Positions 40,495-51,232 are shown, counted from the first letter of the stretch. The stretch is 59,596 nucleotides of DNA from an uncultured Bdellovibrionales bacterium (GCA_903926205.1 CAIYID010000076.1:1-59596), one strand, 5' to 3'. Numbers and translations: made by a program. Notes: generated from the sequence alone by a model not told the origin.

Positions 40495-42156
40495 ATGGCA
40501 AAAAACAACAAAACAAAATTGAACTCTAAAACAGTAAAAAAATTGAATAAAAGCTCCTCCCGTCTTCGCGCCGGGATTCTGGTCAAAGCCACTCAGAAAT
40601 CCGCGACGACTCCAACCAAACTTCCAGTTGTGCGAGTGGCCGGCGTTTCTGCTCTTGCTAAATCTTATGAGAAATCAACGAGGAACTTGGCGGGAAAATC
40701 CACTCCGAAACTGAAGTTTTCTACAACTTGGCAATACGCACCTTCTTTAGAAGCTACTGACCAAGTAAAGTTGGAAAAAAAATATGATCTTTTTATCAAC
40801 GGAAAATTCCAAGAGCCGAACTCAGGCAAATACTTTGCAACGCTGAACCCTGCGACGGAGAATAAAATTGCAGATGTAGCAGAAGCCAATGAGCAAGATG
40901 TGACCTTAGCGGTGAGTGCGGCCCGAAATGCTTATGACAATGTTTGGTCCCGCATGGCGGGAAAAGAGCGCGCAAAATATATTTTTAGAATTGCGCGCCT
41001 CATTCAAGAGAGAGCCAAAGAGCTTTCTATTATTGAGACCATGGATGGCGGAAAACCAGTGAGGGAATCCCGCACCGTGGATATTCCTTTAGCGGCCGCT
41101 CATTTTTTCTATTATGCGGGCTGGGCAGATAAAATGGAATTTGCTTTTCCAGGCCGTCAACCACAAGCCCTCGGTGTCGCTGGCCAAATCATTCCTTGGA
41201 ATTTTCCTCTGCTCATGGCCGCTTGGAAAATCGCCCCAGCGCTCGCCGCTGGAAATACGGTGGTCCTTAAGCCGGCAGAAACCACACCGCTCACAGCGCT
41301 GAAGTTGGCAGAAATTATTCAGCAAGCCGAACTTCCTCCAGGCGTGGTCAATATCATCACCGGCGCTGGCCCAACTGGTGCGGCTTTGGTCAATCATCCG
41401 GATTTGAATAAAATTGCTTTCACGGGCTCTACTGAAATCGGAAAAATCATTCAGCGAGCAGCCGCAGGAACCGGAAAAAAGCTCACCTTGGAACTAGGTG
41501 GGAAGAGTGCCAATATTATTTTTGAAGATGCGGCCATCGATCAAGCGGTTGAGGGAGTGGTGAATGCGATATTCTTTAACCAAGGTCATGTTTGTTGCGC
41601 GGGCTCGCGCCTGTTTGTGCAGGAGTCCGTGGCAGCAATGGTGATTCGTAAACTTCAAGATCGTTTGGAGTCTTTGAGTGTCGGTGATCCCTTGGACAAA
41701 AACACGGACATCGGGGCCATTAACTCAAAAATGCAATTAGATAAAATCAATGCCTATTTGGACGTGGGAGTGAAAGAGGGCGCTTTGATGTATCAAAACT
41801 CTTGTCCTCTACCAAAGAAAGGCTATTGGTGCCGCCCAACCATATTTACGGAAGTGGCGCAATCTCACAAAATTGTGCAAGAGGAAATTTTTGGCCCAGT
41901 TTTGACCGTGCAAACTTTCCGCACTCCAGAAGAGGCCATTGAGAAAGCGAATAACACACCTTACGGTTTGGCTGGCGGAATTTGGACCGAAAAAGGTTCA
42001 AAGATTTTTAAACTAACGAGCCAAATTCGGGCGGGAGTTTTGTGGGCGAACACCTATAATAAATTTGATCCGACGTCTCCTTTTGGTGGTTATAAAGAGA
42101 GCGGTATGGGACGTGAAGGTGGTGTTCACGGTTTACTTCCTTACGTGAAATTTTAA
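40495..42156 (+). CDS. NAD-dependent aldehyde dehydrogenase with a basic N-terminal extension
   Basis: Oxidises an aldehyde, here probably the acetaldehyde from DeoC, to its acid. The 553 residues include [15 protein letters not shown] with the general-base Glu, [11 protein letters not shown] with catalytic Cys near residue 367, the cofactor loop [12 protein letters not shown] and [10 protein letters not shown]. The first 75 residues are a Lys/Ser/Thr-rich basic tail ([16 protein letters not shown]) before FINGKFQEP, where the normal ALDH fold begins; such a tail is unusual and may bind nucleic acid, protein or a membrane. AAAGGAAG lies before the ATG. It starts 12 bases after deoC and is followed by a half-length homologue. 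Confidence 0.88.
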
Positions 42157-42188: not shown

Positions 42189-43049
42189 ATGGAAAACAGA
42201 ATCAGTGTTCAAAAAACTTATAAAATTTATGTTGACGGTAAATTTCCAAGAACAGAGTCCGGCCGATTTTTCGAGTTTAAATCGCCGAAGGGAAATATGA
42301 CGGCGAATGTTTCCCTTTGCTCGCGTAAAGATTTTCGTGATGCTGTGGTTGCGGCACGCGCGGCTCAGCCCAAGTGGGCGAGCGCTTCGGCCTACAATCG
42401 TGGTCAAATTCTTTATCGAATTGCGGAAATGTTGGAGGGGCGACGCTCGCAATTTGTTGAGGAGCTTATTTGGGAAGGCTCCTCCGAAGTGCAAGCACAG
42501 GCGGAAGTTTCAGCAAGCATTGATCGTTTAGTTTATTACGCAGGATGGTCAGATAAGTATCAACAAATTTTTAGTGCTGTGAATCCGGTGGCCTCCAGTC
42601 ATTTTAATTTTTCAGTTTTGGAGCCCACTGGCGTGGTGGGGATTATTTGCCCTGAGAGCACGGCTCTTTTAGGCTTAGTGTCACTGATGGCTCCTATCAT
42701 CGTTGGGGGAAATTCTTGTGTGATTCTTTCTTCGAGTTCAAAGCCACTGAGCTCGATCACCTTTGCGGAAGTGCTAGAGACTTCTGATGTGCCAGCGGGC
42801 GTTGTTAATATTTTAACAGGGATGCGTGCAGAGCTCGTGAAGCAGTTTGCGCAGCACATGGATGTGAATGCCTTAGCCATTTGCGGCGATGAAAACGAAA
42901 AATCTTTGTGTGAGGTGGAGGCCGTTGAAAATCTTAAACGTGTTCGTGCCTATGATATCCAAGATTGGGCCTTGAGCTTGGCGCAGGGACCTTATTTTAT
43001 TTCAGATTTTCAGGAAATCAAAACCACTTGGCATCCGATTGGAATTTAG
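42189..43049 (+). CDS. Aldehyde dehydrogenase-like protein lacking the catalytic half
   Basis: A 286-residue protein that matches only the N-terminal cofactor-binding half of an aldehyde dehydrogenase: YKIYVDGKFPRTESGR, AAQPKWASASAYNRGQILYR, LVYYAGWSDKYQQIF, VLEPTGVVGIICPE and VPAGVVNILTGM. It stops before the Glu and Cys active-site regions and ends in a short unique tail (TTWHPIGI). The reading frame is clean, with GAAGG before the ATG, so this looks like a maintained protein and not a broken gene. An inactive partner for the preceding enzyme, forming mixed oligomers, is an attractive guess. Similar deoC-ALDH-ALDH clusters occur in other bacteria; whether their second member is also catalytically dead would be worth comparing. 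Confidence 0.75.
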   Translation: MENRISVQKTYKIYVDGKFPRTESGRFFEFKSPKGNMTANVSLCSRKDFRDAVVAARAAQPKWASASAYNRGQILYRIAEMLEGRRSQFVEELIWEGSSEVQAQAEVSASIDRLVYYAGWSDKYQQIFSAVNPVASSHFNFSVLEPTGVVGIICPESTALLGLVSLMAPIIVGGNSCVILSSSSKPLSSITFAEVLETSDVPAGVVNILTGMRAELVKQFAQHMDVNALAICGDENEKSLCEVEAVENLKRVRAYDIQDWALSLAQGPYFISDFQEIKTTWHPIGI

Positions 43050-44364: not shown

Positions 44365-44988
44365 ATGAAATTAACGAGTTTAGTTTTATCCGTTTTGTCT
44401 GTTGTCGCTTTGACATCATCATTAAGTTTGGCCGATGGCGGTCGTGAAGAGCGTGGAGGCGGAGATCGTGGTGGTGACCGAGGCGGAGATCGCGGTGGTG
44501 ACCGAGGCGGAGACCGACGAGGAGATCGTGGAGGAGATCGTGATCATGGCAGACACGACGTTATTGTTTACCCAGTATATCCAGTGTACCCAGTATATCC
44601 AGTGTACCCAGTACATCCCGTATATCCTCCACACCACGATCAGGTTTCAGGAGCTGTTTATTGCGCGCCTGAAGTTGTAGATTCTAACGTTAAAAAAACC
44701 GACGCTGTGTTGGCTCAATTAGCGGCTAATGAGTTAAAATCTTCAGATCTTTTCAAAACTAAAGTGGCAGACATTGCTCAATTGCCAGCGGGTGAAGCTA
44801 AAACAAACGCTTATTTCACTCTTGTTGGAGTGAGTGATCCTAGCAATTCTTCTGAAGTTTTGAATTTGATCTATGCTCGTCAAATCGATCAAAAATATGT
44901 TAACGCTGTTAGCGGTAATCTTCAATTGACAGATACTGAAGCGAAGATGGTTATTCAACGCGTGACCACTGCTTTGCAACCGCGATAA
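44365..44988 (+). CDS. Secreted repeat-rich protein (GGDR and YPV repeats)
   Basis: A 207-residue exported protein of unknown function. The signal peptide ends near SLADG. Next comes a charged run of GGDRGGD repeats (about residues 32-60), then a YPVYPVYP run (about residues 69-87), then a globular helical domain of about 110 residues with YCAPEVVDSNVKK and TDTEAKMVIQRVTTAL. The first tract is strongly basic/acidic and Gly-rich, the second Tyr/Pro/Val-rich, as in surface-exposed or cell-wall-linked linkers. AAGGTGG precedes the ATG, a perfect palindrome lies just upstream and a clear terminator follows, so it is a single transcription unit. Confidence 0.65.
   Translation: MKLTSLVLSVLSVVALTSSLSLADGGREERGGGDRGGDRGGDRGGDRGGDRRGDRGGDRDHGRHDVIVYPVYPVYPVYPVYPVHPVYPPHHDQVSGAVYCAPEVVDSNVKKTDAVLAQLAANELKSSDLFKTKVADIAQLPAGEAKTNAYFTLVGVSDPSNSSEVLNLIYARQIDQKYVNAVSGNLQLTDTEAKMVIQRVTTALQPR
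44458..44543 (+). repeat. 24-base repeats encoding GGDRGGDR
   Basis: About three and a half copies of a 24-base unit like GGCGGAGATCGTGGTGGTGA, with few substitutions and in frame with the gene. Such tandem DNA can gain or lose units, changing the protein in steps of eight residues. Confidence 0.75.
44572..44626 (+). repeat. 18-base repeats encoding YPV
   Basis: CCAGTATATCCAGTGTAC occurs twice exactly (44572-44589 and 44590-44607), then a diverged third copy. Each unit encodes two YPV triplets. Confidence 0.8.
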
Positions 44989-45038
44989 TTTCTCGATTGT
45001 GAGTGTAAACTCGCAAATAAAAATAATTAGGAACGCCG

Positions 45039-45070
45039 AACTGACGACCAATGGGTCGTCAGTTTTTTTT
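45039..45070 (+). terminator. Rho-independent terminator after the repeat-protein gene
   Basis: An 11-bp stem AACTGACGACC / GGTCGTCAGTT with loop AATG, then a run of eight T. Confidence 0.9.
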
Positions 45071-45235: not shown

Positions 45236-46447
45236 TTGAAGTGGATATGCTCACTTTTAATGTTGATTTCACACCCCTGTCTAGCCGGTCAGGTAGCTAA
45301 GCCATCTTCACGATATTTATCAAGGCGCCAAGAGTTATTCTATATGACTAAAAAACATGATTCGTTAAATAAAATACTGCGTAGCTTTGGAATCAGGCCT
45401 GCATGGGGTTCTGGTGGGGCTGTGGAAAAGCTATTGCTTTCTAATCCAGCCTTGCAAGAACACAAGAAAAAGGCTGATTTCATTTATCCAAGAGAAAAAA
45501 TTCAGTTCGACTCAAGTTTCACGGAAGTGTTTTTTAATCGGAGAGAACGGGGTATTGCATCGATCAGTGAGTCCGGTGAGATCAATTTTATTTGCTCTGA
45601 TGAATCTTTAAAGCAATGGGCTTTAATCAGACATGAACTTGAACCAGATGTCGATCCATTTGATAAACGTTATCCTACGTTGGCACTTGATTGTAAGCAG
45701 GAGCAGCCGGAAGTCTCTATTCCTGCTTTAGCGTCAGAGCCAGCGGCGGTGGCACCAGCGCCATTGCAGCCAATGATTCAAGAGGTTAAAAGCAATGAGA
45801 ATCTGGTTGATAGTCATATGGAATTTTCAATTGGCAGTGGACATTCGAAGATCAGCTCAACCTACGCAGGTACTTCTTCAAATGCTAATATTTTATCGCA
45901 ATCCATGCAGGAAGTAATGTTCCGTTGGGAACAGCACTGGAGTGAACGGCAGCATAGTTTTATAGAATGGAATAACCTCGCGATGTCATATGTGGGCGCC
46001 AATATCGGCACATTGAACAATGGCACTCAGCAGATTTCTAATTTCAGCTTTGGAGGGAATTACAGATTTTCAGATCAATGGGTGATCGAGACGCAACTGG
46101 GTCTGCATGGTTATGTGTTTGCGCCATCCTATGCCGCGGGCTCGGTAAATTTAGAGGTAAAACCCTTGCCTTACGCGCAAGTGCAATTCCTCCGGGATCT
46201 GGTCAAAGTACGAAGTTTGACTCTTAAGGGTGGAGGAGGGCTTGTCTATACAGCTCCATCGACAGAGGCGGGATATAATATTGGAGCCGGCAGTGCCTAT
46301 TATGGGCTTCTCCGCATCGAACAGCAGCTGAAGTCATTCGGGCTCTTCACCGAAGGTCAATACGAGTATTTTAATCAAAGTACTTCCTTCACGAGTCAGA
46401 CGACTCAAGAGCTCTGGGGTCGAATGGGGGTTCGATGGGATTTGTGA
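45236..46447 (+). CDS. Outer-membrane barrel with a LysM-like N-terminal domain
   Basis: A 403-residue exported protein. The short signal peptide ends near CLAG. Residues 35-90 (DSLNKILRSFGIRPAWGSGG, LLLSNPALQEHKK, FIYPREKIQF) follow the LysM-like pattern of repeat-start, N-P and I-x-P-G-x-x-I, so a peptidoglycan contact is plausible. A Pro/Ala/Glu linker (SIPALASEPAAVAPAPL) then leads to a beta-strand domain of about 200 residues ending GVRWDL. The start is TTG with AGAGGTG five bases upstream; no ATG gives the signal. Its last 13 bases overlap the lipoprotein gene, followed in turn by the fibre gene, so three products are made together. An anchor for the fibre is my inference. Confidence 0.6.
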   Translation: MKWICSLLMLISHPCLAGQVAKPSSRYLSRRQELFYMTKKHDSLNKILRSFGIRPAWGSGGAVEKLLLSNPALQEHKKKADFIYPREKIQFDSSFTEVFFNRRERGIASISESGEINFICSDESLKQWALIRHELEPDVDPFDKRYPTLALDCKQEQPEVSIPALASEPAAVAPAPLQPMIQEVKSNENLVDSHMEFSIGSGHSKISSTYAGTSSNANILSQSMQEVMFRWEQHWSERQHSFIEWNNLAMSYVGANIGTLNNGTQQISNFSFGGNYRFSDQWVIETQLGLHGYVFAPSYAAGSVNLEVKPLPYAQVQFLRDLVKVRSLTLKGGGGLVYTAPSTEAGYNIGAGSAYYGLLRIEQQLKSFGLFTEGQYEYFNQSTSFTSQTTQELWGRMGVRWDL

Positions 46448-46779
46448 ATCACTCAAACTCCTTGAGTTTTTTATTAAAGCAAAAGACTTTAATTGTTTTA
46501 AGTTTGTTTCTTTGCAGTTTGGTGATGGGCTGCGGACCAAACCCATTTGGTTCAGGGGCTACGACAATTTCAACGACCTACGGCCCTAACCCAAGCGTGC
46601 CAGTGGTGCCAAGTGCCACAAACATTGCTCCTATTACAGGGAGTGTTCAGTCGGGGCTGACGACACAGAACGCTCGTGCCTCTTTGTCGGTAGGGGCTGC
46701 AACATCAAAAATGAAATTAACGACAACAAATGGAGCTACGGCTTATTTAAGTGTGCAGGGACAAATTATCTCGAAATGA
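46435..46779 (+). CDS. Small lipoprotein between barrel and fibre genes
   Basis: A 114-residue lipoprotein: helical leader (LIVLSLFLCS) and lipobox LVMGC with Cys33, then PNPFGSG and a Pro/Ser/Thr-rich section that looks exposed. The start ATG lies within the end of the barrel gene, next to GGGGG as ribosome site, and the stop is six bases before the fibre gene. No family is recognised. Its position suggests a tether or assembly factor for the fibre or barrel. Confidence 0.6.
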   Translation: MGFVNHSNSLSFLLKQKTLIVLSLFLCSLVMGCGPNPFGSGATTISTTYGPNPSVPVVPSATNIAPITGSVQSGLTTQNARASLSVGAATSKMKLTTTNGATAYLSVQGQIISK

Positions 46780-46785
46780 GGAGTT

Positions 46786-49290
46786 ATGACCAAAACGAGG
46801 CAGAAAAAATCACTAGCAATACTTATGAAGATGATTCTGGCGTTTGGATTTGTCCTGACGCAATCTTCCTTGGTGGAAGCGGCTCAGAGTTTCACCGTCG
46901 AGGGGCGGATTTTAAATCCTGATGGAAGTGTCCTCGCTTACGCGGCCACTCAGTTTCAGGTTTCAGTGTACAATCAAGCTTACAATGTTGTCACTCCAGC
47001 CACGAATTGTCTTCTTTATCAAGAGATGCAAACACTGGATCTTTCTGTCACACAAGGGGCCTTTTCGCTGACGATTGGAAATGGCACTCGAGTCGGAGCC
47101 GGAGTTGATGGCGGCTATTCACTCAGTCAGGTGTTTTCAAACTCAGTTCCATTGAATGCAATGCCTGCGGGCCATTGTCCCGCTGGAGTGTACGCACCAG
47201 GTACCGCTGAGACCCGCGTGCTTGTCCTTTCCTATTATAACGGCAGTGTGTGGGACACAGTTCCGGTGGTGGGATTAAGTTGGGTGCCTCAAGCACTTTA
47301 CGCTGAAGACACGGGCTCCCTTGGTGGAATTTTGGCAAGTAATTACGTCACAAACGCAGGTATTCCCACTTGCGGAGTCAACTCCGCACTGACATGGAAT
47401 GGCAGTGCGTTTTCGTGCTTAAGTTCAGGAGCAGGGAGTGTTACCAGTGTGTCTTCTTCTAACGCTGACATCGGCGTGGCTAGCGGCACCAGCGCCTCAG
47501 TTATTACTTTGAACTCTGGCACCTCCGCCAATCAGATCGTCAAATTGAATGGCAGTGCTCAGCTTCCGGCTGTTGATGGATCTCTGCTTACAAATTTAAA
47601 TGCGAGCAATTTTACTAGTGGCACGGTCGCAGTAAATCGTGGTGGGACTGGGTTGTCAGGCTATGTTACCGGTGACCTCGTGGTAGCTACGGGAGCCACT
47701 GCTCTTGCCTCACTCCCAGATGTGACAAGCGGCAAAGCCTTGGTTTCTCAAGGTGTTGGAGTCGCTCCTGCGTATTCCAACGCCATCGGGGGAGTGACTC
47801 TCTCCGGAGGTAATGTGACAACCGCAGGAAATATTTCAAACTCCAGTGGAATAATGACTGTCAGTGCGGCCACAAATTTAACTGTTTCATCTGGGATTGG
47901 CTCGTTAACGACCATCGGTAATGCCATTGGAGCTTCTGCGTCTGTTGTGCAAGCAGGAGCGGCCGGAGGAATTACACTTTCACCAAATGGATCGAATGTC
48001 ACTGTTTCTGGTTGGACGGCAGGCTTTGTAAAAAGCAATGGCTCTGGTGTACTTGGGCCGGCGGCACTAGCGGCAGGGGATATCACAGGGGCTTTGACTT
48101 ACACGCCAGTAAATAAAGCTGGCGACACCATGAGTGCGAGTCTGACCTCTCCCTCCTTTATTCCTAATAGCGCGACAGAGCCGACAAATGGGGTTTACCT
48201 TCCTGCTACAAATACTGTTGGAATTGCCGCTAACTCCATCGCAGCAGCACAGTTCACCTCAACAGGCATGAATAGCACAGTGATCGGTGCGACTACTCCT
48301 GCGGCGGGGACATTCACAATGATGAATGGCACAAGTGAAACTCTGACCACACAATTAACCTCGCCGACTATTTATGGATCAACAGCCGCGTCGGGGACGT
48401 TGACTCTCGCGGGAACGTCGAATGGAACGCCAGGAAACATTATTTTGAATTCTACAGCAGGGAACGTTGGTATCGGCACGACAACGCCGGTGTCAACTCT
48501 TGATGTCGCTGGAACAATTAGAATGGCTAAGAATACCAGTGCACCGGCGACATGTGATGCAACCCATGATTCAATGCTTGCTACGAATGCAAATTATACC
48601 ATGTGCATTTGTAGAAACGGAATTGGCTGGGTGTTAACTTCAGATGGGCTCACGAGTTGTACTTGGGGAGTGGTCTCATCAAATGGTATTTCTGACTTTG
48701 GTTCTGGTAGCGGTTGGCAAGTTAATAGTAATGGTAATGGATCACCCGGAATTATCGGAGGTAATCTCGTCTTAACTAACAACGTAGGCACTATGGCCAG
48801 TTCTGCTTTTTTTACTACCAAGCAGAACTGGGTGACTGGATTTAACGTCAGTTTCATCTATACAGCTGTTGGCTCGGCAGACGGAATGGCCTTTGTCATT
48901 CAGAATTCTTCAATCACAGCTCTTGGTGCAAGTGGGGGAGGACTCGGATACAGTGGCATCAATACGACCAGTATGGCGATCGAATTTAATATTTGGGGTA
49001 GCTCCGGATCGGCCATGGGTACCAATGGATCGACGGGTGGCTACACATCGACAAGTCCCGTTGTTCTTAACTCTGGGCACCCTATCAGCGTGAGTATCGG
49101 TTACCTCGTTACTGGCAATTTGACCTACACTCTCACTGATCAAACAACAAGCCAGACCATTACATATAATAGGATAATCAACCTAGCGACAGTGTTAGGG
49201 GCCAATGGAGGTTATGTCGGATTTTCAGGAGGAGATGGTGGTGCCACGTCCACTCAAACTATCTCCAATTTTGTTTTTACGCTACTTTGA
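46786..49290 (+). CDS. Fibre adhesin with a legume-lectin-like C-terminal tip (MAT-like)
   Basis: An 834-residue exported protein. After the signal (end near VEAAQ) the N-terminal domain reads QSFTVEGRILNPDGSVLAYA, then CLLYQE and GAFSLTIGNGTRVG, an opening I associate with the Mosaic Adhesive Trimer fibres of Bdellovibrio. Residues about 200-590 are low-complexity shaft, rich in Gly, Ser, Thr and Asn, with phage-tail-like turns (LPAVDGSLLTNLNASNF, NRGGTGL, GNVGIGTTTPVSTLDVAG). The last 200 residues resemble an L-type lectin: GNLVLTNN, GSADGMAFVIQN, GGGLGYSGI and MAIEFNIW. Thus a trimeric shaft with a sugar-binding tip is likely. GAGGAG precedes the ATG. It is the end of a barrel-lipoprotein-fibre operon. 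Trimerisation and glycan specificity are inferred. Confidence 0.65.
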   Translation: MTKTRQKKSLAILMKMILAFGFVLTQSSLVEAAQSFTVEGRILNPDGSVLAYAATQFQVSVYNQAYNVVTPATNCLLYQEMQTLDLSVTQGAFSLTIGNGTRVGAGVDGGYSLSQVFSNSVPLNAMPAGHCPAGVYAPGTAETRVLVLSYYNGSVWDTVPVVGLSWVPQALYAEDTGSLGGILASNYVTNAGIPTCGVNSALTWNGSAFSCLSSGAGSVTSVSSSNADIGVASGTSASVITLNSGTSANQIVKLNGSAQLPAVDGSLLTNLNASNFTSGTVAVNRGGTGLSGYVTGDLVVATGATALASLPDVTSGKALVSQGVGVAPAYSNAIGGVTLSGGNVTTAGNISNSSGIMTVSAATNLTVSSGIGSLTTIGNAIGASASVVQAGAAGGITLSPNGSNVTVSGWTAGFVKSNGSGVLGPAALAAGDITGALTYTPVNKAGDTMSASLTSPSFIPNSATEPTNGVYLPATNTVGIAANSIAAAQFTSTGMNSTVIGATTPAAGTFTMMNGTSETLTTQLTSPTIYGSTAASGTLTLAGTSNGTPGNIILNSTAGNVGIGTTTPVSTLDVAGTIRMAKNTSAPATCDATHDSMLATNANYTMCICRNGIGWVLTSDGLTSCTWGVVSSNGISDFGSGSGWQVNSNGNGSPGIIGGNLVLTNNVGTMASSAFFTTKQNWVTGFNVSFIYTAVGSADGMAFVIQNSSITALGASGGGLGYSGINTTSMAIEFNIWGSSGSAMGTNGSTGGYTSTSPVVLNSGHPISVSIGYLVTGNLTYTLTDQTTSQTITYNRIINLATVLGANGGYVGFSGGDGGATSTQTISNFVFTLL

Positions 49291-49354: not shown

Positions 49355-49399
49355 TCCAAAATTGAGAATTTAAATAATCTCAATTTTGGATTTTTTTTT
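49355..49399 (+). terminator. Rho-independent terminator after the fibre gene
   Basis: A perfect 13-bp stem TCCAAAATTGAGA / TCTCAATTTTGGA around a ten-base loop, followed by nine T. It separates the fibre operon from the protease pair. The rest of 49291-49531 holds no gene. Confidence 0.9.
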
Positions 49400-49531
49400 A
49401 AATCGAAGTTAGTGTTTTACTTAGAAAATAAAAGAGGCAATTCGTTCTCAAAATAAGTCGCATTACATTCTAAAGAAATGACCAAATTTATCCGATAGGG
49501 AGATGGGTAGGCGAACCATAGGGGGATGAAG

Positions 49532-51232
49532 ATGAAACGTAGCTCTACATTTGTCCTTATTTTTTCTGGGGTCTCTGTAGTCATGGGACTTCTCTATCAA
49601 AATTGCTCCGAAAATGGATTTAGTTCAAATGCCAGCGGCTCGATCAATAGCAATGTGCTTGCTAATTCAACAGGTCCGAACACCGGGAGCAGCAGCGGCA
49701 GTAGTAGTGGCAGCACCGGGAGCAGCAGTGGCAGCACCGGAAGTAGCAGCGGCGGTAGTAGTGGAAGTACCGGGAGCAGTAGCGGCGGCAGTGCCAATGC
49801 TTATATAGATCCTGTTGCGGCCGGAGTTCTGGATAGCAATTGTCTTAATTCAAACACCTATGACGCTTGTATTTTTCTTAAAAATCCTGTGGCCCAAGAA
49901 GGAGCTGCTCTTTCATTTTTAGGAACTTCTGGAAACTTGTCAGCTATTTATCAGTCGTCACAATTGGCGGCGGTGCAAAAATTTGGAGTTAAATTAACTG
50001 GCTTGACCGACCCTAGTCATCTCACCTCAAGCTCTTTTTATGTCTATTATTCCTCGGATTTAATCAATGGTCCTAAATACCGCCTGACGTTGAATAATGG
50101 ACAATTTCGACAGTCCTATGCATTGGATGGTGATGAAAACACGAAGGATGGGCAAAAGAAAACCGTTGCCCAAATTATGGCGTACTTCTGGTTAACGTAT
50201 TTAAGTGATCAAATGAAATCCAGAACGGGCTTGTTTTGGGCGGATGCCGCGAGAACAGGGAAAGTCACAAATGTCGATGCATATAGCCACACGGTGGAGA
50301 CCGCTTTTGCAAGTAGTGTGCGATCCAATGCTTTTTTTACTTATAACACAGATTCCACCGGTGCTGCGACAACAAGATCTATCATTATGGGCTACGCCAA
50401 AAAGGCCGGAGCGACAGCGGGTACCTACGTCAATTTACAAGAGATGGCCCTCAGTGCAGAGGTGTATGTTCATGAAATGGGTCATGCAAATCTCTTAGCT
50501 GCCGCAGGGACAGCTATTAGTCATGATAATTCCAATGAGCAGTACTACCTTACGGTGAGTACTTGTTCTGATTCAACACAAGTAGGAAAGAAGTATATTT
50601 GTAGCGATGTCAGCTCTTCTTATTGTGCCAATACAACACTTTCGGGTCTTCAAACATTATGTGGAGCTTCATTTAATTACTCTCTTACGGCTCGCTTCTG
50701 TAAAACAGCAAATGGTTGCATTGGTGGTATTAACGAAGGGCAGGCTGATTTTCACTACCTGATGATGTTCCCGTTAAAAACGGCCTTGGCTGAAACTATT
50801 TTTAACTCTCCTATTGGAGGTTTTAATAGTTCAAATACTTATTCTCAAGACACGTCGGTAAGCCCGGCAGTTTGTTCTACAAGTATTCTTAGTGAAGGAG
50901 CAAAGAGGGATGTGAGTCAGGTCCCGACAAGCTGGACGACCACAAACTTCTTTAATGGTTCTGCTTTGCAATTTAACTCCTGCGGAGTTACAATCCCGGG
51001 CGAAATTCATGGAATGGGCAGTGCCTATGCATACCTTCTGTGGTCGATTTACAGCGATCCTTCAACTGATAAACGAATCTTTGAAAAAACATTTCAAAAC
51101 CATCTTGCGCAAATGGGTCCCTCCACGAATTTTTCCTCTGCTAAAAGTGCTCTTCTTTCAAGCGATGCGGCTCTTGGTGGAAAAAATCAAGCTGTTATCA
51201 GCCGCGTGTTTACGGCTAAAGGAGTATTGTAG
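49532..51232 (+). CDS. Gluzincin metalloprotease lipoprotein with a Ser/Gly linker
   Basis: A 566-residue exported zinc protease. The leader ends VVMGLLYQNC, an atypical lipobox with Cys25. Next is a Ser/Gly/Thr repeat linker (about residues 50-88) and a catalytic domain. The HExxH motif HEMGH lies at residues 314-318 and GGINEGQADF supplies the third zinc ligand Glu402, placing it with the thermolysin/fungalysin-like gluzincins. Several Cys follow. There is no N-terminal FTP/PepSY propeptide, which such enzymes usually carry; the next gene encodes one. ATG at 49532 is preferred, as GGGGG is six bases upstream; an ATG at 49526 is too close. The stop TAG shares its last base with the GTG of the next gene. 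Confidence 0.75.
   Translation: MKRSSTFVLIFSGVSVVMGLLYQNCSENGFSSNASGSINSNVLANSTGPNTGSSSGSSSGSTGSSSGSTGSSSGGSSGSTGSSSGGSANAYIDPVAAGVLDSNCLNSNTYDACIFLKNPVAQEGAALSFLGTSGNLSAIYQSSQLAAVQKFGVKLTGLTDPSHLTSSSFYVYYSSDLINGPKYRLTLNNGQFRQSYALDGDENTKDGQKKTVAQIMAYFWLTYLSDQMKSRTGLFWADAARTGKVTNVDAYSHTVETAFASSVRSNAFFTYNTDSTGAATTRSIIMGYAKKAGATAGTYVNLQEMALSAEVYVHEMGHANLLAAAGTAISHDNSNEQYYLTVSTCSDSTQVGKKYICSDVSSSYCANTTLSGLQTLCGASFNYSLTARFCKTANGCIGGINEGQADFHYLMMFPLKTALAETIFNSPIGGFNSSNTYSQDTSVSPAVCSTSILSEGAKRDVSQVPTSWTTTNFFNGSALQFNSCGVTIPGEIHGMGSAYAYLLWSIYSDPSTDKRIFEKTFQNHLAQMGPSTNFSSAKSALLSSDAALGGKNQAVISRVFTAKGVL
49684..49792 (+). repeat. Ser/Gly-encoding tandem repeats
   Basis: Repeats of GGGAGCAGCAGTGGCAGCAC and relatives, encoding a SSSGSTGS linker in the metalloprotease. 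Changes in copy number would lengthen or shorten the linker without a frameshift when the unit is a multiple of three. Confidence 0.7.

Follow-up and report, generated by a model that had tools for sequence, protein, structure and literature searches.

In a 59,596-nucleotide stretch of DNA from an uncultured Bdellovibrionales bacterium (CAIYID010000076.1; below, the window), three adjacent genes at 45236-49290 encode a predicted LysM-like beta-barrel protein, a small lipoprotein, and a fibre of the Mosaic Adhesive Trimer (MAT) family that ends in an L-type lectin domain. The source genome, from the Bdellovibrio family, comprises 3.34 Mb in 94 contigs, of which the window is C76. An initial annotation, made from the sequence alone, had regarded the three genes as a candidate surface-attachment system. 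Comparison with relatives indicates that they are a real, conserved adhesin cassette, in which a member of the MAT family stands in a new setting: the MAT family itself was already known, and what is new is the linkage of barrel, lipoprotein and MAT. The chances seem about even that the barrel protein and the lipoprotein together form a peptidoglycan-linked dock for the fibre in the outer membrane.

Judged by its sequence, the cassette holds as one transcription unit ending at a strong terminator, as first annotated. The barrel and lipoprotein open reading frames overlap by 13 bp, and the fibre frame begins 6 bp past the lipoprotein stop (Table 1). The stem-loop that closes the operon has a calculated stability of -16.4 kcal/mol (z -4.8), which no shuffled sequence equalled; a simple terminator scan overlooked it because its loop is long. 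Upstream, a terminator-like site at 45038-45065 parts the operon from the preceding gene, but sites of this type are no more frequent in the region than in shuffles.

Gene linkage and the two-part lipoprotein

The initial annotation had named absence of linkage in relatives among the outcomes that would refute its reading; the current work shows that the genes are linked. Barrel-lipoprotein-MAT triads in the same order were found in at least 13 genomes: that of the window, G032 (L025/L148), G010 (L026/L149), G190, G027, G268, G281, G271, G249, G022, G031, G147 and Bdellovibrio sp. 28-41-41 (L150, apparently G296). The triad of G147 comes from outside the taxonomic order, in another family of the phylum. 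Two further genomes, G244 and G151, have barrel-lipoprotein loci with a divergent MAT. Among 35 barrels placed on a tree, those linked to a MAT are scattered over at least three separate parts, with at least three changes even on the well-supported branches alone, which points to an association of barrel and MAT that was changed or gained repeatedly. A candidate triad of G002 (L102) was rejected, its 361-aa outer-membrane protein lying outside this barrel family; a different outer-membrane protein may play the part of the barrel there. A lipoprotein-MAT pair was also observed in CALQIT020000013.1 (L160), a record titled Streptomyces griseus that seems to be the same as G020, from the window's family; the title is probably wrong.

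The lipoprotein is bipartite, with a front end that goes with the barrel and a back end that goes with the MAT, the pattern expected of an adaptor. Its lipidated cysteine is followed by an extended tether with the motif C-x(0-3)-N-P-[LFMI]-G. Among 62 lipoproteins that are adjacent to a barrel, adjacent to a MAT or carriers of the C-terminal domain (alignment A2), this motif is present in 17 of the 25 that have a barrel beside them and in 1 of the 37 others (Fisher p 2e-8, kinship ignored), the single carrier among the latter being the window's own paralogue. The A2 domain, on the other side, is common to the lipoproteins linked to MATs, whether or not a barrel is present. A profile search of 60 relatives gave 42 A2 matches in 29 genomes, of which 26 stand directly 5' of a co-oriented MAT gene and four others adjoin a MAT in a different arrangement; even among the 30 matches outside the profile-building set, 14 are directly 5' of a MAT. 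With about 1-20 MATs per genome among thousands of genes, we estimate the chance expectation at well below one, related genomes being non-independent, and the linkage is far beyond chance.

Where no MAT is present, the same barrel is often directly followed by giant lipoproteins of 812-2041 aa, with shafts of Invasin_D3, fn3 or Big domains and with Laminin_G_3 (concanavalin-like) domains. Their composition suggests a fused counterpart of the small adaptor. Set beside such fusions of tether and adhesin, the MAT version resembles a split form, with the small lipoprotein as its adaptor. The genes of the giant lipoproteins (up to 2041 aa, Ig-like and LamG; L207-L215, L260-L262) overlap the barrel gene, and a subset in genus g7 begins differently, with C-x-K-K-G-S-S-I-E-x-G-F-L-A-G.

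Barrel, fibre and lectin tip

The barrel domain is predicted with high confidence to be a 10-stranded outer-membrane barrel. AlphaFold2, given only four sequences, modelled residues 190-403 with approximately ten long strands, at a pLDDT of about 80-95, and the closest fold found by VIA-align was OpcA (2vdf; Z 20.3, rmsd 2.6 over 196 residues), followed by the omptins (Z about 18-19) and, much lower, intimin (4e1s, Z 9.4). The likeness to OpcA and the omptins is confined to the fold: identity is ~10% or less, and the window protein has a LysM-like N-terminal region and no sequence family match. LysM is above the Pfam cut-off in the homologues L078 (1.9e-7), L081 (4.1e-7) and L079 (1.6e-5); the "LysM-like barrel" of the initial annotation is borne out, with a LysM that is degenerate in the window copy. 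Of 291 genomes sampled from the phylum, 149 carry the barrel family (alignment A7), and a lipoprotein nearly always follows it. Neither the lipoprotein nor the window barrel has a name in Pfam, NCBIfam or PHROGs.

The fibre, which had been said to resemble Bdellovibrio MATs at its N-terminus, can be assigned to that family by sequence. It matches NF053851 (Bdello_MAT_N, named by NCBIfam "mosaic adhesive trimer family chimeric fibre") at 95.5 bits and 2.9e-27, where the cut-off is 60 bits. The conserved beta-rich N-terminal domain, about 130 aa after the signal peptide, can be aligned with the MAT N-terminal domains of G036, which we take to be B. bacteriovorus HD100, and the shaft is MAT- and phage-tail-like by inspection. 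Shafts of MATs are trimeric, either beta-helical or meandering. The tip is exchangeable: a paralogue on contig C48 of the same genome (G000:C48) has 52% identity to the fibre in residues 5-224, and 62.5% in the cap (559-627), which corresponds to its last 72 aa. The paralogue stops at the cap, where the window fibre runs on into the lectin. The fibre has the signal peptide, N-terminal domain, phage-tail-like shaft and exchangeable adhesive tip of the MATs of Bdellovibrio bacteriovorus (PMC10769870). It differs from those described in its L-type lectin tip and in its operon with a dedicated barrel and lipoprotein; the main text of PMC10769870 contains neither "legume" nor "L-type" and does not mention such an operon.

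The L-type lectin fold proposed for the tip is supported by sequence. The C-terminal ~200 residues match Lectin_legB (PF00139) in Pfam at 6.7e-8 and 32.8 bits, above the cut-off of 26.3 bits, and a sequence search of the PDB matched the solved legume-type lectin 7elv at 8.5e-8. Unlike the legume lectins, the domain is fused to a bacterial fibre and most of the metal-site residues are unconserved. Of 66 family genomes only the window's own has Lectin_legB matches, in the fibre tip and in one lipidated lectin of contig C49; none was found in the 65 others. With its confinement to one genome and a paralogue that ends at the cap, the tip looks like a lineage-specific graft, common to two barrel-associated loci of that genome.

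The second of these loci, G000:C49 (L268 4122-6955, minus strand), carries lipoproteins of 461 and 463 aa in tandem, which combine autotransporter-type repeats with an L-type lectin. One of the lectin lipoproteins begins CSNPIGG, and a 249-aa barrel homologue comes after the pair. These lipidated lectins and their barrel homologue make up, within the window's own genome, a fused counterpart of its system.

A possible dock and its alternatives

In the proposed dock, the barrel protein would lie in the outer membrane and hold peptidoglycan with its periplasmic LysM-like region, the fold being predicted and the LysM suggested by homologues. The lipid of the lipoprotein would insert into the same membrane. 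Co-occurrence and the fused versions suggest that the post-cysteine tether (C-x-N-P-[LF]-G...) would engage the barrel, and that the C-terminal hairpin domain would engage the conserved MAT N-terminal domain. The fibre would then project as a trimeric shaft, with the L-type lectin tip facing glycans on prey or another surface; in relatives without a MAT, tether and adhesin are one polypeptide behind the same barrel. What the analysis establishes is the linkage of the genes, their families, the predicted barrel fold and the association of the motif; all contacts among the three proteins are what we infer, as is glycan binding by the tip. The initial annotation had supposed that the two partners could anchor or export the fibre. 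Comparison supports anchoring and a role in attachment well; export seems less likely, given the narrow 10-stranded barrel and the LysM.

Several observations weigh against the dock. Solitary barrels and solitary lipoproteins exist, and most MATs are without an adjacent lipoprotein, a candidate being present at 22 of 72 sampled, some of them spurious. HD100 has 21 MATs and no barrel of this family; because it displays MATs all the same, the barrel cannot be a general requirement of MATs and would be the partner of a subset only. The window barrel itself has no Pfam LysM match. Most of the legume-lectin metal-site residues are lost in the tip, where the ADG and GGGLGY loops are kept and the E-x-D...D metal loop reads EFNIWGSSGSAMGT, so that sugar binding through the classical site is doubtful. 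Profile similarity between the lipoprotein C-terminus and the first strand of the MAT is not significant. The lipoprotein and fibre share a reading frame and are separated by a single TGA (46435-47355); a pseudo-complex read through this codon (P0001, lipoprotein plus MAT N-terminal domain), an artifice that makes no claim on the organism, folded with low confidence (hairpin pLDDT ~60-72, domain core 70-80, pTM 0.48), and the relative placement of its parts cannot be read. Mimicry or complementation of a MAT strand by the lipoprotein was considered as well: MAFFT repeatedly placed SVQGQILS, the last strand of the lipoprotein, on TVQGRILN, the first strand of the MAT. A profile comparison gave this 0.9% probability, and it is retained as no more than a lead.

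A wider reading, to which somewhat less weight is given than to the dock itself, is that the LysM barrel and the N-P-[LF]-G-tethered lipoprotein constitute an undescribed, phylum-wide display system in the outer membrane of Bdellovibrionota. It would be a two-polypeptide counterpart of intimin and invasin, presenting lipidated Ig/LamG adhesins or, through an adaptor, MATs, and would be the missing surface partner of those MATs. With the inverse autotransporters (type Ve) it has in common, as a functional set, a LysM (clear in homologues, degenerate in the window copy), an outer-membrane barrel, an Ig/Invasin_D3 shaft and a lectin-like tip, most clearly at the loci of barrel and giant lipoprotein. 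Assignment of the barrel to type Ve was rejected, and type Ve is kept as an analogy: the parts, passenger included, are on separate polypeptides, the passenger or adaptor is lipidated, about 10 strands are predicted and not 12, and the window shaft is a MAT.

Alternatively, the barrel could be an exporter of the lipoprotein and perhaps of the fibre, similar to Slam (type XI secretion), for which the N-P-[LF]-G tether would be the signal, and would not stay in the complex. This is unlikely, yet it accounts for the gene order of outer-membrane protein and lipoprotein cargo, and for the very different cargo C-termini behind a common post-cysteine motif; it also resembles what is described for Slam and type XI cargo or for lipoprotein export signals of Bacteroidota (PMC5449769, PMC8406197, PMC6222051). 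As in Slam systems, an outer-membrane barrel adjoins a lipoprotein and the cargo is diverse. However, the predicted barrel has only 10 strands, is nearest to OpcA and OmpT and would be too narrow for bulk export. The window barrel has no Pfam match at E<=1, DUF560/SlamC included, it is smaller than Slam, the N-terminus of its homologues is LysM and not TPR, the MAT is no lipoprotein, and cargo of the g7 lineage is without the motif. Slam, too, was rejected as an identity and kept as an analogy.

Slightly less probable again is that an unrelated receptor anchors the MAT, and that the other two proteins make up a surface unit of their own, only co-expressed with it. HD100, which displays MATs although it lacks the barrel and, for most of them, a neighbouring lipoprotein, would fit this, as would the solitary barrels and lipoproteins; against it, the C-terminal domain of the lipoprotein goes with MAT genes also at loci that have no barrel, and on the barrel tree triads turn up in parts unrelated to one another. 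A coincidental operon of three unrelated envelope proteins, for which only the general clustering tendency of envelope genes speaks, is highly improbable, being already contradicted by the linkage of overlapping genes in an order conserved between genera and even in a second family of the phylum.

By its length we take the 627-aa MAT in G036 (HD100) to be Bd2740, and its divergent neighbour to be Bd2734. In favour of the dock, small lipoprotein genes lie immediately 5' of both (L088), though too divergent for the A2 profile. The only A2-domain copy of HD100 (L265 1520-1870; G036:C1, ~3191199) is just 3' of a MAT gene, and the same arrangement was seen in G007 and G033. Deletion of Bd2740 and of Bd2734 delays predation, as stated in PMC10769870, according to which the surface element bound by the MAT N-terminal domain awaits identification. 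The words "operon" and "lipoprotein" are not mentioned in the main text of that paper. The initial annotation knew of no fibre system with these partners, and the literature searched, which covered the main text of the MAT paper, describes no lipoprotein or operon partner of MATs, nor this barrel.

Features, neighbouring genes and biological meaning

Table 1. Features of the three-gene cassette, in coordinates of the window
Feature	Position	Strand	Basis
LysM-like / 10-stranded outer-membrane beta-barrel protein, predicted (403 aa, TTG start)	45236..46447	+	Open reading frame, AlphaFold2, OpcA match, family A7
LysM-like region, aa ~33-92, degenerate	45332..45511	+	Aligned in A7 to LysM-bearing homologues
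Beta-barrel domain, predicted, aa 190-403	45803..46444	+	AlphaFold2, structural match
Small outer-membrane lipoprotein, candidate adaptor (114 aa)	46435..46779	+	Open reading frame, lipobox LVMGC with Cys33, homologues directly 5' of MAT genes
N-terminal tether CGPNPFGSGATTISTTYG, barrel-associated motif C-x(0-3)-N-P-[LFMI]-G	46531..46584	+	Motif counts, Fisher test
C-terminal domain, ~55 aa, common to MAT-linked lipoproteins (A2)	46618..46776	+	Profile search
MAT-family fibre with L-type lectin tip (834 aa)	46786..49290	+	Open reading frame, Pfam, NCBIfam
MAT N-terminal domain	46852..47355	+	NF053851 match, aa 23-190
Cap region ending ...GWVLTSDGLTSCTW, end point of paralogue G000:C48	48460..48666	+	Identity to paralogue
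L-type lectin domain, putative C-terminal graft	48691..49281	+	PF00139; PDB 7elv; 33% identity to G000:C49 lipidated lectins
Intrinsic terminator of operon	~49355-49399	+	13-bp stem, then nine T

The first gene past the terminator (49526-51232) encodes a 568-aa predicted lipoprotein with a serine-glycine linker and a zinc-metalloprotease-like HEMGH motif, for which no Pfam match was found. Elsewhere in the window, a 286-aa aldehyde-dehydrogenase-like open reading frame (42189-43049) lies directly 3' of a full-length one (40495-42156) and looks like a shortened tandem copy, and a 207-aa secreted protein with GGDRGGD and PVYPVYP repeats is encoded at 44365-44988.

Among the adhesins by which Bdellovibrio is known to recognise prey, MAT fibres are the main ones. 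The locus names two candidate partners for the MAT surface element that awaits identification, and illustrates what looks like the grafting of a lectin tip onto such a fibre in one lineage. The barrel-lipoprotein adhesin module appears to be common to about half of the sampled genomes of the phylum.

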